Shown here: piece by piece, positions 1 through 5,320 of the stretch
Numbering within the stretch: position 1 is the first letter of the stretch
How the letters are laid out: the number at the start of each line of letters is the position of its first letter
DNA from: Luteibacter aegosomatissinici
GTDB taxonomy: Bacteria > Pseudomonadota > Gammaproteobacteria > Xanthomonadales > Rhodanobacteraceae
Reading direction: 5' to 3'
Assembly: GCF_023078495.1 (NCBI RefSeq)
Contig: NZ_CP095742.1
Span: forward strand, 1,798,001 to 1,862,000
DNA: 64,000 nucleotides
Notes under the pieces: model-generated
Databases searched by the model: none
The model's input: only the letters and a program-made list of their open reading frames with translations
What the model was told of the DNA's origin: nothing
Program-made: the position numbers and the translations under genes

Positions 1-294
1 CTTGGCCGGTTCCTCACGCCTGATGCCTACAGGGAACTGCTCACAGAGCGCCTGTGCGAGGACTATCCGGCCGACCATGAGGTGATCGTTTATCGCGCGC
101 CCACGCTTCCGATCGATGGGCCTTACATCCAGCGCATGGCCCTTCGCGACTTTCCGCGCGCGGAGTTCACTGGCCACGAAACGCTTGTGTTGCCCCCGCT
201 CCATGCGTTGAAGCCCAACGCAAGGATGCGTGCAAGGCTGGATGAGCTTGATGCGCTCTACGGTGAAGGCACCGAGGCGGCCGTGCTGGCATAA
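1..294 (+). CDS. C-terminal part of a tetrapyrrole-methylase-family SAM methyltransferase, borosin N-methyltransferase-like (5' end outside window)
   Basis: Only the last 97 codons are present; the frame is open from base 1 and stops with TAA at 292-294. The fragment reads DYPADHEVIVYRAPTLPI, then PYIQRMALRDFPRAEF and TLVLPP. From memory this closely parallels the C-terminal part of SonM, the split-borosin alpha-N-methyltransferase of Shewanella (YPLDHEVVIYEAPNLPI ... LPLANLPQAHL ... TLLIPP). Enzymes of this family use SAM and have the tetrapyrrole (TP) methylase fold; the borosin branch methylates backbone amides of a peptide substrate. The SAM-binding and catalytic residues lie upstream of the window and cannot be checked. 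The small precursor-like gene 79 bases downstream supports a peptide-modifying role. Another TP-methylase activity remains possible. Confidence 0.72.
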   Translation, partial: LGRFLTPDAYRELLTERLCEDYPADHEVIVYRAPTLPIDGPYIQRMALRDFPRAEFTGHETLVLPPLHALKPNARMRARLDELDALYGEGTEAAVLA

Positions 295-373
295 GCCGCT
301 AAAGATTGAGGTCTGCTTGCCGTTACAGCACGGTGCGGTAGCGCTTCCAAGTCATGAAAACCAGGGGAACAAC

Positions 374-694
374 ATGCGCGACACGGTAGAACTACTGGAG
401 GCCATCGGCCGCGACGCGACATTGCGGCACGCATCGCGAGAGGACTTGGCGAAGGTGCTGCAGGCGGAAAACGCATCGGAAGGGCTGCGCGAACTTGCCT
501 CCGGCGGCGATAGCGCCACGCTGACGAAAGAGCTCGGTCTCGAGCACATGCACGTCGAGCATACGAGCCAGACGGGTGGCCACGAAGGCGACGGCCATGA
601 CGATCACCACCACCATCACCCCGATCGCGATCACGATCGGGAAGACAAGCCTTCCCAGCACCCTGAAGATGGCGACAGCACGCCGCCAGCCTGA
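374..694 (+). CDS. Small precursor-like protein with borosin-binding-domain-like N terminus and His/Asp-rich tail (106 aa)
   Basis: The start is ATG 374, preceded by AGGGGA at 363-368. Residues 1-55 are predicted helical and include LLEAIGRDATLRHAS, a pattern like the leader of the split-borosin precursor SonA (FFTQLGQDAQLMEAY, recalled from memory) and reminiscent of Nif11-type leaders. From about residue 58 the protein becomes low-complexity and very hydrophilic: HMHVEH, GGHEGDGHDDHHHHH, then PDRDHDRED and a Pro/Ser/Asp end. Its position directly after a borosin-type methyltransferase suggests it is the peptide substrate. Known borosin cores are hydrophobic or small-residue stretches, so this metal-binding-like tail is unusual. 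No membrane segment or signal peptide is visible. The coding call is firm; the RiPP role is inferred. Confidence 0.7.
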   Translation: MRDTVELLEAIGRDATLRHASREDLAKVLQAENASEGLRELASGGDSATLTKELGLEHMHVEHTSQTGGHEGDGHDDHHHHHPDRDHDREDKPSQHPEDGDSTPPA

Positions 695-705
695 CCTTGC
701 CTGAT

Positions 706-2532
706 ATGGCCCGCGGCCGCCTTGGGCGCCTACGCTCGGGGGCACTCCTGATCGGAGTCGCCCTCGGAGCGCTGACGCCTCTTGGCCACGCATCCGAGCC
801 CCGGCGCGACATCACTACAACGGAGCGGCTCGAATGGACCGACGGCATGCGCACGTCGGATCACCCGCACTTCATTGACTCGCTAGCTCAACTTCATCGT
901 AGCGACGCTGGCATGACGCCTGCCGAGCGGCGATACCTCCGGTTTCTCGACGGCTGGGAGGCGAACTACGAGGGGAAGTATCCCGAGGCGGAGGCGGCTT
1001 TCAGGAAGGTCATTGCTGATGCGAGCGATGATGCCGTGGGCATCCGGGCAACGTCCTTGTTGATGAACAACTTGAGCGAGCAAGGAAAGTACGCCGAAGG
1101 CTACGCGGTGGCCACGCGGGCGGCAGATACGTTGCCCGAGATAACGGACCCGTACCCGCGCTATGTCTTGCTTGCCAATCTCTCGCAAATGCTGACCTTC
1201 GCCGGCCAGCCAGAGCAGGGGTTGAAGTACGCCGAGCAGATGCTGGAGGCCACGCCTGCAGGTCAATCGGCTTGCCAGGCGATGGTCCAGAAGGTCACGG
1301 CGCTCGAAGGAGCGCGGCAATTAACGTCCCGTAGCCCAGATCTGCTCAAGACGATCGAAACCTGCACCACCGACAACCAGCCGATCTTTGCTAACACGGC
1401 ATCGCTCATCCTCGTCGATCGCCTGCTGGATGAGCACAAGCTTGCGGATGCATTGGCCGCGAATCAACGCATCGTGCCCGGAATTCGGGCCAGTCAATAT
1501 TTTCGCCACCTTATCGATGCCATTTCGCAACGTGCACGGATCTACGAGCAGATGGGTAACACGGCCGAAGCCCGTCGCGCAGCGCTGGATGCCGTCAGCA
1601 TGGCCCACGCGGGCGACGTGAATGAGGCCATGCGTTTCGCGTACCGCATTCTGTATTCCACCGAGAAGGCGCAAGGAAATACTGCCAGTGCACTGGCGTA
1701 TTACGAGAACTATGTTATCCAGGATCAGGGATATCTGCGCGACGCTAACGTCAGGAATGCCGCCTACGAGGCGGCGCGCGAACATTTCCGCGCGGAGAAG
1801 CTCGAGACCGAAGGCTTGAGCAAGGAAAACCACATCCTGAAGTTGCAGCAGGCGCTCGATGCCAAGGCTGTAGAGGCCAGCAGACTGTATGTCGTGGTCT
1901 TGTCGCTGGTCCTGCTCTCGATCGTGTTCTGGATGGTGCGTATCAAGCGCTCGCAGTTGCGCTTCAAGTGGCTCTCATCGTGCGACGGATTGACCGGCAT
2001 ATTCCACCACCAGCATTTCATGAGTGAGTCCGAGCGCATGCTTGGCGTGCTGGCCAGGCGAAGAGGTGCGGGTTGCCTGGTCTTTCTTGATCTGGATTAC
2101 TTCAAGCAGGTAAACGATACGCATGGGCACGCAATAGGCGATCTGGTCCTCAAGCATGCGGTAGCGATCTGCAAGGCCCAACTACGCAAAGACGATCTTT
2201 TTGGTCGCCTGGGCGGCGAGGAGTTCGGCATGCTTTTAGTGGATGCGCCACGCATGCAGGGAAGCGTGGTTGCGGAGCGAATTCGCGCCGCGATGGCCGC
2301 CGCGCCGCTGGTCATCGATACCGCGGTCATAACTGTTGAAGCTAGCGTGGGTGTGGCTTGCACAGATATCGCCGGTTATGACCTGTCGCGCCTGTGCCGC
2401 GCCGCCGACGCGGCACTGTATCGGGCTAAGCACATGGGGAGAAATCGCGTCGTCGTCGATACGGATGGCGGCGCCGCTACCGAACTGTCGCCCCCGGCTC
2501 GAACTGTCCCCAAGGCCCCCCGGACGGCGTGA
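706..2532 (+). CDS. TPR-sensor diguanylate cyclase (GGDEF protein)
   Basis: Predicted inner-membrane enzyme making c-di-GMP from two GTP. ATG 706 gives 608 aa starting MARGRLGRLRSGALLIGVAL, a signal-peptide-like segment; an in-frame TTG at 697 is possible. Residues about 35-375 are Ala-rich helical repeats typical of periplasmic TPR sensor regions. One membrane helix lies near 392-412 (LYVVVLSLVLLSIVFWMV). A short linker leads to the GGDEF domain at about 420-590. The active-site motif is GGEEF at 503-507. The inhibitory-site motif RKDD is at 494-497, five residues ahead as in feedback-regulated cyclases, so both catalysis and product inhibition look intact. It starts 11 bases after the preceding small gene and may share its transcript. 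Confidence 0.9.
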   Translation: MARGRLGRLRSGALLIGVALGALTPLGHASEPRRDITTTERLEWTDGMRTSDHPHFIDSLAQLHRSDAGMTPAERRYLRFLDGWEANYEGKYPEAEAAFRKVIADASDDAVGIRATSLLMNNLSEQGKYAEGYAVATRAADTLPEITDPYPRYVLLANLSQMLTFAGQPEQGLKYAEQMLEATPAGQSACQAMVQKVTALEGARQLTSRSPDLLKTIETCTTDNQPIFANTASLILVDRLLDEHKLADALAANQRIVPGIRASQYFRHLIDAISQRARIYEQMGNTAEARRAALDAVSMAHAGDVNEAMRFAYRILYSTEKAQGNTASALAYYENYVIQDQGYLRDANVRNAAYEAAREHFRAEKLETEGLSKENHILKLQQALDAKAVEASRLYVVVLSLVLLSIVFWMVRIKRSQLRFKWLSSCDGLTGIFHHQHFMSESERMLGVLARRRGAGCLVFLDLDYFKQVNDTHGHAIGDLVLKHAVAICKAQLRKDDLFGRLGGEEFGMLLVDAPRMQGSVVAERIRAAMAAAPLVIDTAVITVEASVGVACTDIAGYDLSRLCRAADAALYRAKHMGRNRVVVDTDGGAATELSPPARTVPKAPRTA

Positions 2533-2582: not shown

Positions 2583-2999
2583 ATGACTACCCAACCCTCA
2601 CTCACCATCGGCCGCATCGCGCAGAGCGCGGGGGTGGCCATCGATACGATCCGGTTCTACGAGCGCGAAGGGCTGTTGCCCGAGCCCCGGCGCCGGCCCT
2701 CGGGTTACCGCGAATACGACGCCTCGGCCGTTTCCCGCCTGCGCTTCATCCGCCGGGCGAAGGACCTGGGTTTCACCCTCGATGAGATTCGCGAACTGCT
2801 GGCGCTGTCGGCCGATCGCCATGGCGGGGTGGAGGGGGTGCGCGAGCGCGCCGCCGCCCGGCTCAAGGCCATCGATGACCGCATCGCCGAACTGCAGCGT
2901 GTACGCGATGGCCTGGCCGAGCTCGTGGATGCCTGCCCGGGGCATGGCTCCCCCGAGGATTGTCCGATCCTGAAAGCCCTGGCGGAGCCCACGCCATGA
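2583..2999 (+). CDS. MerR-family metal-responsive transcriptional regulator (CueR/ZntR class)
   Basis: 138 aa. The N-terminal winged-HTH reads [21 protein letters not shown], followed by a dimerisation helix and a C-terminal metal loop with C118 and C127 ([10 protein letters not shown]). The protein should bind the 20-bp-spacer promoter just upstream and activate it when metal is bound. No Cys is seen at the position equivalent to C79 of ZntR/MerR, which favours a monovalent copper-type sensor. The C-x8-C loop spacing is closer to ZntR/CadR, so the metal is assigned mainly from the coupled Cu ATPase. The start codon has no room for a Shine-Dalgarno sequence if the predicted promoter is right (leaderless mRNA). 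The stop overlaps the next start as ATGA. Confidence 0.9.
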
Positions 3000-5320
3000 G
3001 CCATACATGCTGCTCGCACGGCACCGCCCCACAGGCGGCGCCGGTGATTGACCCTGTCTGCGGTATGACGGTGGACCCGGCGAAGACGCCGCACCACCAC
3101 ACCCACGAAGGCCACGACTACCACTTCTGCGGCGCAGGCTGCCGCACGAAGTTCATGGCCGATCCGGGAAAGTACCTTGGCCCGAAGGAGCCCGAGGTGC
3201 CGATGCCAGCGGGCACGATCTACACCTGCCCGATGCACCCGGAGATTCGCCAGGAAGGGCCAGGCTCATGTCCGAAGTGCGGCATGGCGCTGGAACCGGC
3301 GATGCCATCGCTGGATGACGACGACGGCGAAGTGCAGGCGATGGCACACCGCTTCGGCTTGCTGCTGGCGCTCACCGTGCCGGTCTTCGTCGTGGCCATG
3401 GGGCCGCACCTGTTCGGCTGGATGTGGCCTTCGCCATGGGATGCCGTGGCCCGCTGGGGCGAGGCGTTGCTTGCTACGGTGGTCGTGTTGTGGGGCGGGG
3501 CGCCGTTCTTTGCCCGTGGCTGGCGGTCGCTGAAGCCATGGTCGCCCAACATGTACACGTTGATCGCCCTGGGCACGGGTGTTGCCTGGGCGTACAGCGT
3601 GGTGGCGTTGCTGCTTCCCGGCGCATTCCCCGTGTCGATGCGCGACATGCACGGTCATGTGGATGTCTATTTCGAGTCAGCGGCCGTCATCGTCACGCTG
3701 GTCACGTTGGGTGATTTCCTTGAACTGCGTGCCCGTCGCCGCACGGGCGCTGCGCTTCGCGGCCTGCTGGGCCTGGTACCCAAGACCGCGCGCCGCATCG
3801 CTGCGAACGGAACGGAAGATGACGTGCCGCTGGATCACCTGCATGTCGGTGACCATTTGCGCGTACGTCCCGGCGAGAAGATTCCGGCGGACGGCACCGT
3901 CGTGGAAGGCGAAAGCCACGTCGACGAAGCCATGCTTACCGGCGAAGCGAACCCCGTGGTGAAGCGGGCGCACGACAAACTCACCGGCGGAACGCAAAAC
4001 CAGCACGGGGCCTTGACGATGCGCGTGGATCACGTCGGCGCGGATACCGTGCTCTCGCGAATCGTCATGATGGTGGCCGAGGCGCAGCGTTCACGCGCGC
4101 CTTCGCAGCGCATTGCCGACAAGGTGGCCGCGTGGTTTGTGCCCGCCGTGGTGCTGGTGGCGGTCCTGGCCTTCGCTGCCTGGTGGCTGTTGGGCCCGCA
4201 GCCGGTCCTTGCGCACGCGCTGGTCGCGGCGGTTTCCGTGCTCATCATCGCGTGCCCTTGTGCGCTGGGCTTGGCGACGCCCATGTCCATCATGGTAGCC
4301 AGCGGTCGCGGCGCCCAGGCGGGTGTGCTGTTTCGTGATGCGGCGGCGATCGAAACGCTGCGCGATATCGATACCCTGGTCTTCGACAAGACCGGCACGC
4401 TGACGGAAGGCAAGCCAGCGCTGGCCGATGTACGCACGTTCAATCGTGATCGTGCCGAAGTGCTCGCCTACGCCGCGGCGGTGGAACGGCCCAGCGAACA
4501 TCCCCTTGCCGCCGCGATCGTCGCGGCAGCGGAAGGCGAGGGCATCGCTATTCCGAAGGTCTCCGGTTTCCGTGTCATGGTCGGGCGTGGCGTGGCGGGT
4601 CGCGTGGATGGCCACGATGTAGCTGTCGGCAATGGGCGGTTGATGGACGATGAGCGCGTGGACGCCGCGGCAGGGCGGGACATCGCGGAGAAGTGGCGGG
4701 CAAAGGGCGCCACGGCGATGTACGTGGCGATCGATGGCCGGCTCGCTGCCGTGTTGTCACTCGCCGACAAGGTCAAGGCCTCAACCAGACCCGCGCTGGA
4801 AGCATTGCACGAAGCGGGTATCCACCTGGTCATGCTGACGGGCGACAACGCCGTGACCGCGAAGGCGGTGGCGTCCATGTTGCCGATCAATGATGTGCAC
4901 GCGGGCGCCTCGCCACAGGACAAGGCGAACCTCGTGGCGCAGCTGAAGGCAGAAGGGCGCAAGGTCGCCATGGCGGGCGATGGGGTGAATGATGCGCCCG
5001 CTCTTGCGAAAGCCGACATCGGCATCGGCATGGGTAACGGCAGCGACATCGCCATCGAAAGTGCATCGGTGACGCTGCTGAAAGGCGATCTTGCCGGTAT
5101 TGCACGAGCACGCGCGTTGTCGGCGGCAACGGTGAAGAACATTCGCCAGAACCTGTTCTTCGCGTTCATCTACAACGCCGTGGGCGTGCCGCTGGCGGCA
5201 GGGGCGTTGTATCCGTTGCTGGGCATCACGCTATCGCCGATGGTGGCCGCGCTGGCGATGAGCCTGAGCTCGGTATCGGTGGTAGGAAACGCCTTGCGCC
5301 TGCGCACCGAACGTATCTGA
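2996..5320 (+). CDS. copA: Copper-exporting P1B-type ATPase with YHS and heavy-metal-binding domains
   Basis: 774 aa from ATG 2996, overlapping the regulator stop by four bases; an in-frame ATG at 2960 would lie inside the regulator gene. N-terminal Cys-rich parts: a His/Cys start (SHTCCSH), a YHS/TRASH-like module (DPVCGMTVD ... HFCGAGC) and a zinc-ribbon-like module (YTCPMHPEI ... [10 protein letters not shown]). The core has the actuator TGEA at about 315, CPC at 420-422, the phosphorylated Asp 464 in DKTGTLT, SEHPLA, and GDGVND. The last helices carry FIYNAVGVP and [10 protein letters not shown], consistent with the Cu(I) sites of P1B-1 pumps. TGEA replaces the usual TGES. Role: ATP-driven export of Cu(I) from the cytoplasm. 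Confidence 0.93.

Follow-up and report, generated by a model that had tools for sequence, protein, structure and literature searches.

The window, a stretch of 64,000 bases (G000:C1:1798001-1862000) from the single-contig genome of Luteibacter aegosomatissinici (4,994,364 bases), carries at its left edge a gene pair which, on the homologies of both genes, is almost certainly a split borosin; a gene for a membrane diguanylate cyclase follows directly. Because the precursor gene is coupled to the c-di-GMP cyclase gene across many relatives, the modified peptide appears to be a signal, not a metal binder. With a probability of about 0.5, judged from the gene sequences, this peptide is read by its own TPR-GGDEF receptor and sets the activity of the cyclase. 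To our knowledge, little has been established about what split borosins do in bacteria; if correct, this reading would describe peptide signalling with c-di-GMP output and would give split borosins a physiological role.

Table 1. Features at the left edge of the window (positions in the window)
Feature	Position	Strand	Remarks
SonM-type backbone N-methylase, C-terminal 97 codons	1..294	+	open frame ending in TAA, cut by the window edge
AGGGGA, likely ribosome binding site of the precursor gene	363..368	+	inferred from sequence
Precursor gene, 106 aa	ATG 374 to TGA 694	+	starts 79 bases after the methylase end
Borosin binding domain (BBD), precursor residues 1-55	374..538	+	
Presumed core LEHMHVEHTSQTGGHE, precursor residues 56-71	539..586	+	conserved in 90 homologues; array relatives end soon after
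His/Asp/Glu tail, precursor residues 72-106, and stop codon	587..694	+	variable, always acidic
Membrane diguanylate cyclase	706..2532	+	signal-like N-terminus, TPR-type solenoid, membrane helix, GGDEF domain

The split borosin pair

The full methylase gene lies at L004:9449-10294 (L004 being the stretch around this locus, numbered 10000 ahead of the window); it encodes 281 aa and starts 552 bases before the window. Its top PDB match is SonM (7ltc_A; E 3.2e-68, 233 bits, residues 14-264), followed by the fungal OphMA group at E about 1e-46; PF00590 is matched at 3.4e-19. A preliminary description of this DNA had recognised the cut gene as the C-terminal segment of a SonM-like enzyme, and alignment with SonM agrees with that. 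The upstream extension which it proposed recovers a whole enzyme with the four key residues in place: Y70, R76, Y80 and Y102 are equivalent to Y58, R67, Y71 and Y93, the SonM residues whose mutation is described in PMC8429565. All four are kept in 36/36 methylases (34 further loci plus the two copies of this genome, in L004 and L002). A methylase 84% identical to that of the window, P0147, is filed under Xanthomonas sp. NCPPB 2632; this may be a misnamed Luteibacter-like strain.

Methylase and precursor are encoded by separate genes 79 bases apart and the methylase is homologous to SonM, which corresponds to a type IV split borosin. The small gene and its HDDHHHHHP-containing tail were correctly located and read in the preliminary description; a 154-aa frame with a GTG start (230-694) is the same gene from an earlier start. 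The short helical leader of split-borosin type is likewise confirmed: a profile of the precursor family ranks SonA first in the PDB (E 3e-7), and the AlphaFold2 model of the precursor has five helices, like the SonA BBD. Foldseek with this model gave no match at E 0.001; a second structural comparison took in 9 chains. The precursor has no detected signal peptide. Its homologues number 112 at E <= 0.001, and those with a genus name are Luteibacter or Pinirhizobacter. This number, together with the E values for SonM and OphMA, excludes a chance match. SonM homology, key residues and a SonA-type BBD all support the methylase-precursor pair originally proposed, which is likely to methylate a small peptide along its backbone.

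Split borosins are an established class comprising types IV-X (PMC11395268, PMC11285071). The type IV system SonM/SonA of Shewanella oneidensis, as presented in PMC8429565, shares with the window locus the methylase family and the four key residues; it likewise has a separate precursor with an N-terminal five-helix BBD and the core directly behind. Unlike SonA, the window precursor has a less hydrophobic presumed core and a long acidic/His tail. The window locus also has a TPR-GGDEF gene directly behind the precursor; the comparison with SonM/SonA was made at the level of the proteins.

Core and tail of the precursor

Conservation was counted in the 90 longer homologues (P0001-P0090). The conserved stretch, MHVEHxSQTGGHE, lies just behind the BBD: E62 and H63 are kept in 90/90, Q66 and T67 in 89/90 and MHVEH in 74/90, while variability climbs from residue 72 onward. 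The stretch is rather polar. H63 and S65, the positions matching the methylated residues of SonA, are less hydrophobic than usual; a hydrophobic core is described in PMC11285071 as usual in borosins but not defining.

Tail composition varies chiefly in histidine. At least nine Asp and Glu residues are present in 90/90 tails; HHHH is found in 29/90, at least five His in 57/90 and at most one His in 21/90. In other genera the precursor tails are likewise acidic yet contain no run of His. The His/Asp tail had been suggested to be a new, N-methylated metal-binding core; this is not supported, since the invariant residues precede the tail and its His count varies.

The acidic tail is instead tied to the cyclase gene. 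In 78 distinct precursors from the loci examined (fragments and duplicates dropped), it is present in 53/55 cyclase-adjacent precursors vs 0/23 others, where an acidic tail means at least 7 acidic residues from the fifteenth residue past the BBD, a threshold set after inspection of the data. The rule fails twice: L023 carries a Lys/Pro/Ala tail, and L038 has hardly any tail. By this rule, the His-rich tail of the window can be explained as a local form of the cyclase-marking acidic tail; what was supposed to be a metal product becomes the marker of a cyclase-paired precursor. Two BBD precursors, L023:1673-1987 and L025:1936-2202, have Lys/Pro/Ala-rich, histone-like tails which are not acidic.

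The cyclase behind the precursor

The preliminary description was right about the methylase and the precursor at this locus but passed over the cyclase directly behind them. The GGDEF domain of this protein (PF00990, 3.4e-35) has GGEEF and RxxD motifs, so its catalytic motif is intact; GGEEF is present in all full-length cyclase homologues among those listed. TTG 697 is an alternative start. The TPR-type solenoid (domain at about residues 30-325) is predicted to be periplasmic from hydropathy, Lys/Arg residues behind the membrane helix and two invariant Cys. Matches in a fold search with the cyclase are mostly GGDEF domains, so a TPR receptor family cannot be named from it.

Linkage of methylase, precursor and cyclase

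The 34 further methylase loci come from Rhodanobacteraceae, Rheinheimera, Alteromonas, Marinicella, an Alcanivoracaceae MAG and an alphaproteobacterial MAG. A cyclase homologue is present in 32/34 and absent from L009 and L013; at L038 only the GGDEF half is matched, at a site ahead of the methylase, and at L007 the gene order is BBD, cyclase, methylase. The BBD gene is found by profile in 30/34 loci (weakly in L033 and L035, E about 0.01-0.02), the second profile having been built from 39 of the hits it then served to extend. By eye, it is found in three more (L034, L036 and L037); neither profile nor eye reveals a BBD gene at L013. At L007, L009 and L079, a long protein with a signal-like start, a TonB-dependent receptor by appearance, is encoded downstream of the methylase; at L009 and L079 there is no cyclase near this gene.

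The same association is seen at the level of genomes. Among 197 genomes of the family, the methylase is found in 128 (E <= 1e-40), the cyclase in 124 (E <= 1e-50) and the BBD in 132 (E <= 0.01); these counts rest partly on the best 6 and best 26 candidates per genome, and a gene may have been overlooked in some genomes scored as lacking it. Methylase and cyclase occur together in 123 genomes and neither occurs in 68; five genomes, all from one genus, have the methylase only and one has the cyclase only (Fisher's p 1e-45, for genomes that are not independent). The BBD is present in 128/128 methylase genomes and in 4 genomes without methylase. When genomes are drawn evenly from the whole class, 3/274 carry the methylase, the window's own included.

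Gene order was analysed in 20 closed genomes, which are single-contig methylase carriers and therefore each have at least one methylase. A BBD gene is located directly before 39/55 cyclases, on the same strand and 9-197 bp upstream; 7/55 cyclases directly follow another TPR-GGDEF gene and 9/55 have neither BBD nor cyclase upstream. Random placement, with 4.5 Mb assumed for each genome, gives a mean of 0.011 of 55 such adjacencies, at most 1 in 1000 runs. Conversely, a cyclase lies at most 600 bp downstream of 41/57 BBD genes, and 15 of the other 16 are in G469.

Pairs of BBD and cyclase genes also occur on their own; 8 of the 39 have no methylase within 20 kb. Five of these orphan pairs form a clade of eight (support 100/100) with the methylase-bearing G416 and G469 loci and one BBD-less cyclase, and these five retain the core pattern, e.g. 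FIATQMPG vs YFSSLMP. Because of this clade and the retained pattern, the methylase was probably lost at these loci while BBD, core and cyclase were kept.

No GGDEF gene is encoded within 5 kb of six plasmid-borne SonM relatives from other lineages (6 of the 7 records retrieved). Crude clustering of open frames within 5 kb of the methylase loci revealed no shared exporter, peptidase or further enzyme; since only longest open frames were clustered, real genes may be missed. After methylase and cyclase, the two next clusters, covering 11 and 10 loci, are presumed to be open frames that overlap those genes in another reading frame; no remaining cluster covers more than 3 loci. No RNA element above Rfam thresholds was found in L004:9000-13500.

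Covariation of core and sensor

The covariation tests were set up once the linkage had been noticed. In 62 precursor-cyclase pairs, core distance and TPR distance show a correlation of 0.78. Controlled for GGDEF and BBD distance, the partial correlation of core and TPR is 0.44 (p 0.001); that of core and GGDEF, given TPR and BBD, is 0.12 (p 0.003-0.006). The BBD prefers neither TPR nor GGDEF (0.227 vs 0.221).

The methylase can be taken into account in 55 pairs, with one methylase per locus. Core and TPR remain correlated given methylase and GGDEF (0.46, p 0.001), and core vs methylase given the others is -0.16. In these pairs the BBD tracks the TPR better than the methylase (0.39 vs 0.14), although the BBD should bind the methylase. 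Mean distances are 0.61, 0.41 and 0.30, the largest being that of the TPR. Since the BBD too follows the TPR and the TPR diverges most, part of the core-TPR signal may reflect that the TPR records descent best.

Proposed mechanism

The locus would be a three-gene split-borosin unit. The SonM-type enzyme would bind the precursor BBD and N-methylate the backbone just behind it, at about residues 59-67. The modified core would then be released or displayed and pass to the periplasm, where the TPR sensor from the next gene could take it as its cognate input. With the TPR domain on the periplasmic side controlling a cytoplasmic GGDEF domain, the peptide would set the c-di-GMP level. One methylase may serve several precursors, while precursor and cyclase stay paired. 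The charged tail (His/Asp here, Glu/Asp elsewhere) would not be the product; it is perhaps used for processing or docking.

More tentatively, the reading may be extended to a family of backbone-N-methylated ribosomal peptides, each the cognate ligand of a c-di-GMP-producing receptor with a periplasmic TPR domain. Peptide and receptor genes would be inherited in pairs, several pairs of a genome would have one or two methylases in common, and precursor arrays would provide a repertoire. Pairing and core-sensor covariation predict which peptide acts on which receptor, and c-di-GMP would be a simple read-out.

In the RRNPP receptors of Firmicutes, a TPR domain is the receptor of a small gene-encoded peptide. 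The proposed system would work alike but is not a member of this group: it has a membrane protein, a GGDEF output and a presumably backbone-methylated peptide. In Vibrio vulnificus, the TPR-GGDEF protein of the RcbA/RcbB pair is controlled by the product of a neighbouring operon gene, according to the account in PMC12282931. Control of such a protein from within its operon, as proposed here, thus has a precedent, but the partner described there is another TPR protein, whereas in the window it is a BBD precursor.

Alternative explanations

The weakest point of a mechanism from peptide to receptor is that no shared exporter or peptidase was found. For the same reason, and because the precursor has no detected signal peptide, there is a modest chance that the precursor is not cut at all: BBD, methylated core and tail would together regulate the cyclase inside the cell, and methylation would only fix their shape. 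The tie between acidic tail and cyclase adjacency fits such a regulator, as does the RcbA/RcbB case, where the operon partner de-represses the TPR-GGDEF protein (PMC12282931). It would, however, act on a TPR domain that is predicted from hydropathy, Lys/Arg and Cys positions to lie across the membrane, and array members which stop shortly behind the core would be poorly explained. Somewhat less likely again, the peptide could be a natural product of the usual secreted kind, for example a growth inhibitor, and the cyclase would do no more than control its synthesis or be carried along with it. The array of 12 precursors and the precursor with a repeated core-like unit do resemble a product repertoire, and two methylase loci lack a cyclase; yet BBD-cyclase pairs persist far from any methylase, methylase and cyclase co-occur across the 197 genomes, and the core covaries with the sensor part.

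A metal-binding role for an N-methylated His/Asp tail is improbable. The many Luteibacter-type homologues with five or more His and the metal-related genes behind the cyclase in the window would favour it. This candidate was rejected on tail variability: 21/90 tails with at most one His and HHHH in just 29/90 do not suit it, and neither do the merely acidic tails of other genera. In addition, the tail lies beyond the SonA core register and the metal genes were not found at the 34 other loci. It is least credible of all, to the point of being negligible, that the enzyme methylates tetrapyrroles and has nothing to do with peptides. PF00590 does also cover tetrapyrrole methylases, but CobJ, CobM, CysG and their kin were rejected since none of the listed NCBIfam cobalamin/siroheme models reaches its curated cut-off. 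All listed matches are far below (e.g. 15.7 of 246 bits), against 233 bits to SonM, and a BBD partner is present; the original placement with borosins, not with the cobalamin/siroheme group, is thus upheld. A peptide signal read by the paired TPR-GGDEF protein is the preferred reading.

Relation to published work

In the literature searched, no paper was found that joins borosins with Luteibacter or with a diguanylate cyclase, and PMC11395268 was the sole paper found joining borosins with GGDEF. Its Figure 1 legend names GGDEF among borosin architecture elements. Some GGDEF link is thus shared with the window locus, at the level of a legend which gives neither the type nor whether the domain is fused or neighbouring; because of this legend, the borosin-GGDEF link may be partly known already. 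Neither the two rules, for pairing and for the tail, nor the receptor hypothesis were encountered in the literature searched on borosins.

Other clusters and neighbouring genes

Directly behind the cyclase in the window (2583-5320) come genes for a MerR-type regulator and for a P-type heavy-metal ATPase that carries YHS and HMBD domains. By blastp, no MerR or copper-ATPase-like genes were found at the other 34 loci within the stretches covered. As they are present only at the window genome's own locus, they were rejected as part of the unit.

The same genome has a second split-borosin cluster (L002:1405-3660 and L041; G000:C1 about 701.7-706.5 kb) with a methylase, a BBD precursor and two consecutive TPR-GGDEF genes. 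Its third BBD precursor (L042:3264-3572, minus strand, also in L086; BBD at G000:C1:3130764-3131036) lies directly before a TPR-GGDEF gene, and the nearest methylase is 1.3 Mb away; this is one of the eight orphan pairs. On a Bradyrhizobium plasmid, another borosin-like cluster, without GGDEF, has two SonM-like methylases, a TauD-type dioxygenase, a small protein and an adjoining prolyl oligopeptidase (L082:4986-9998).

G469 has an array of 12 tandem BBD precursors between a methylase and a TPR-GGDEF gene (L078:2190-5828, minus strand). Several of the cores are nearly identical and one member is atypical. Most members end about 12-20 residues past the BBD, several with the motif M-[YF]-x-P-Q-x-x-Q; a long acidic tail is found on the cyclase-adjacent member only. 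In another BBD precursor of G469 (L080:2590-3189, minus strand), a core-like unit of nine residues around F-Q-A-x-Q is present at the C-terminus in about four copies.
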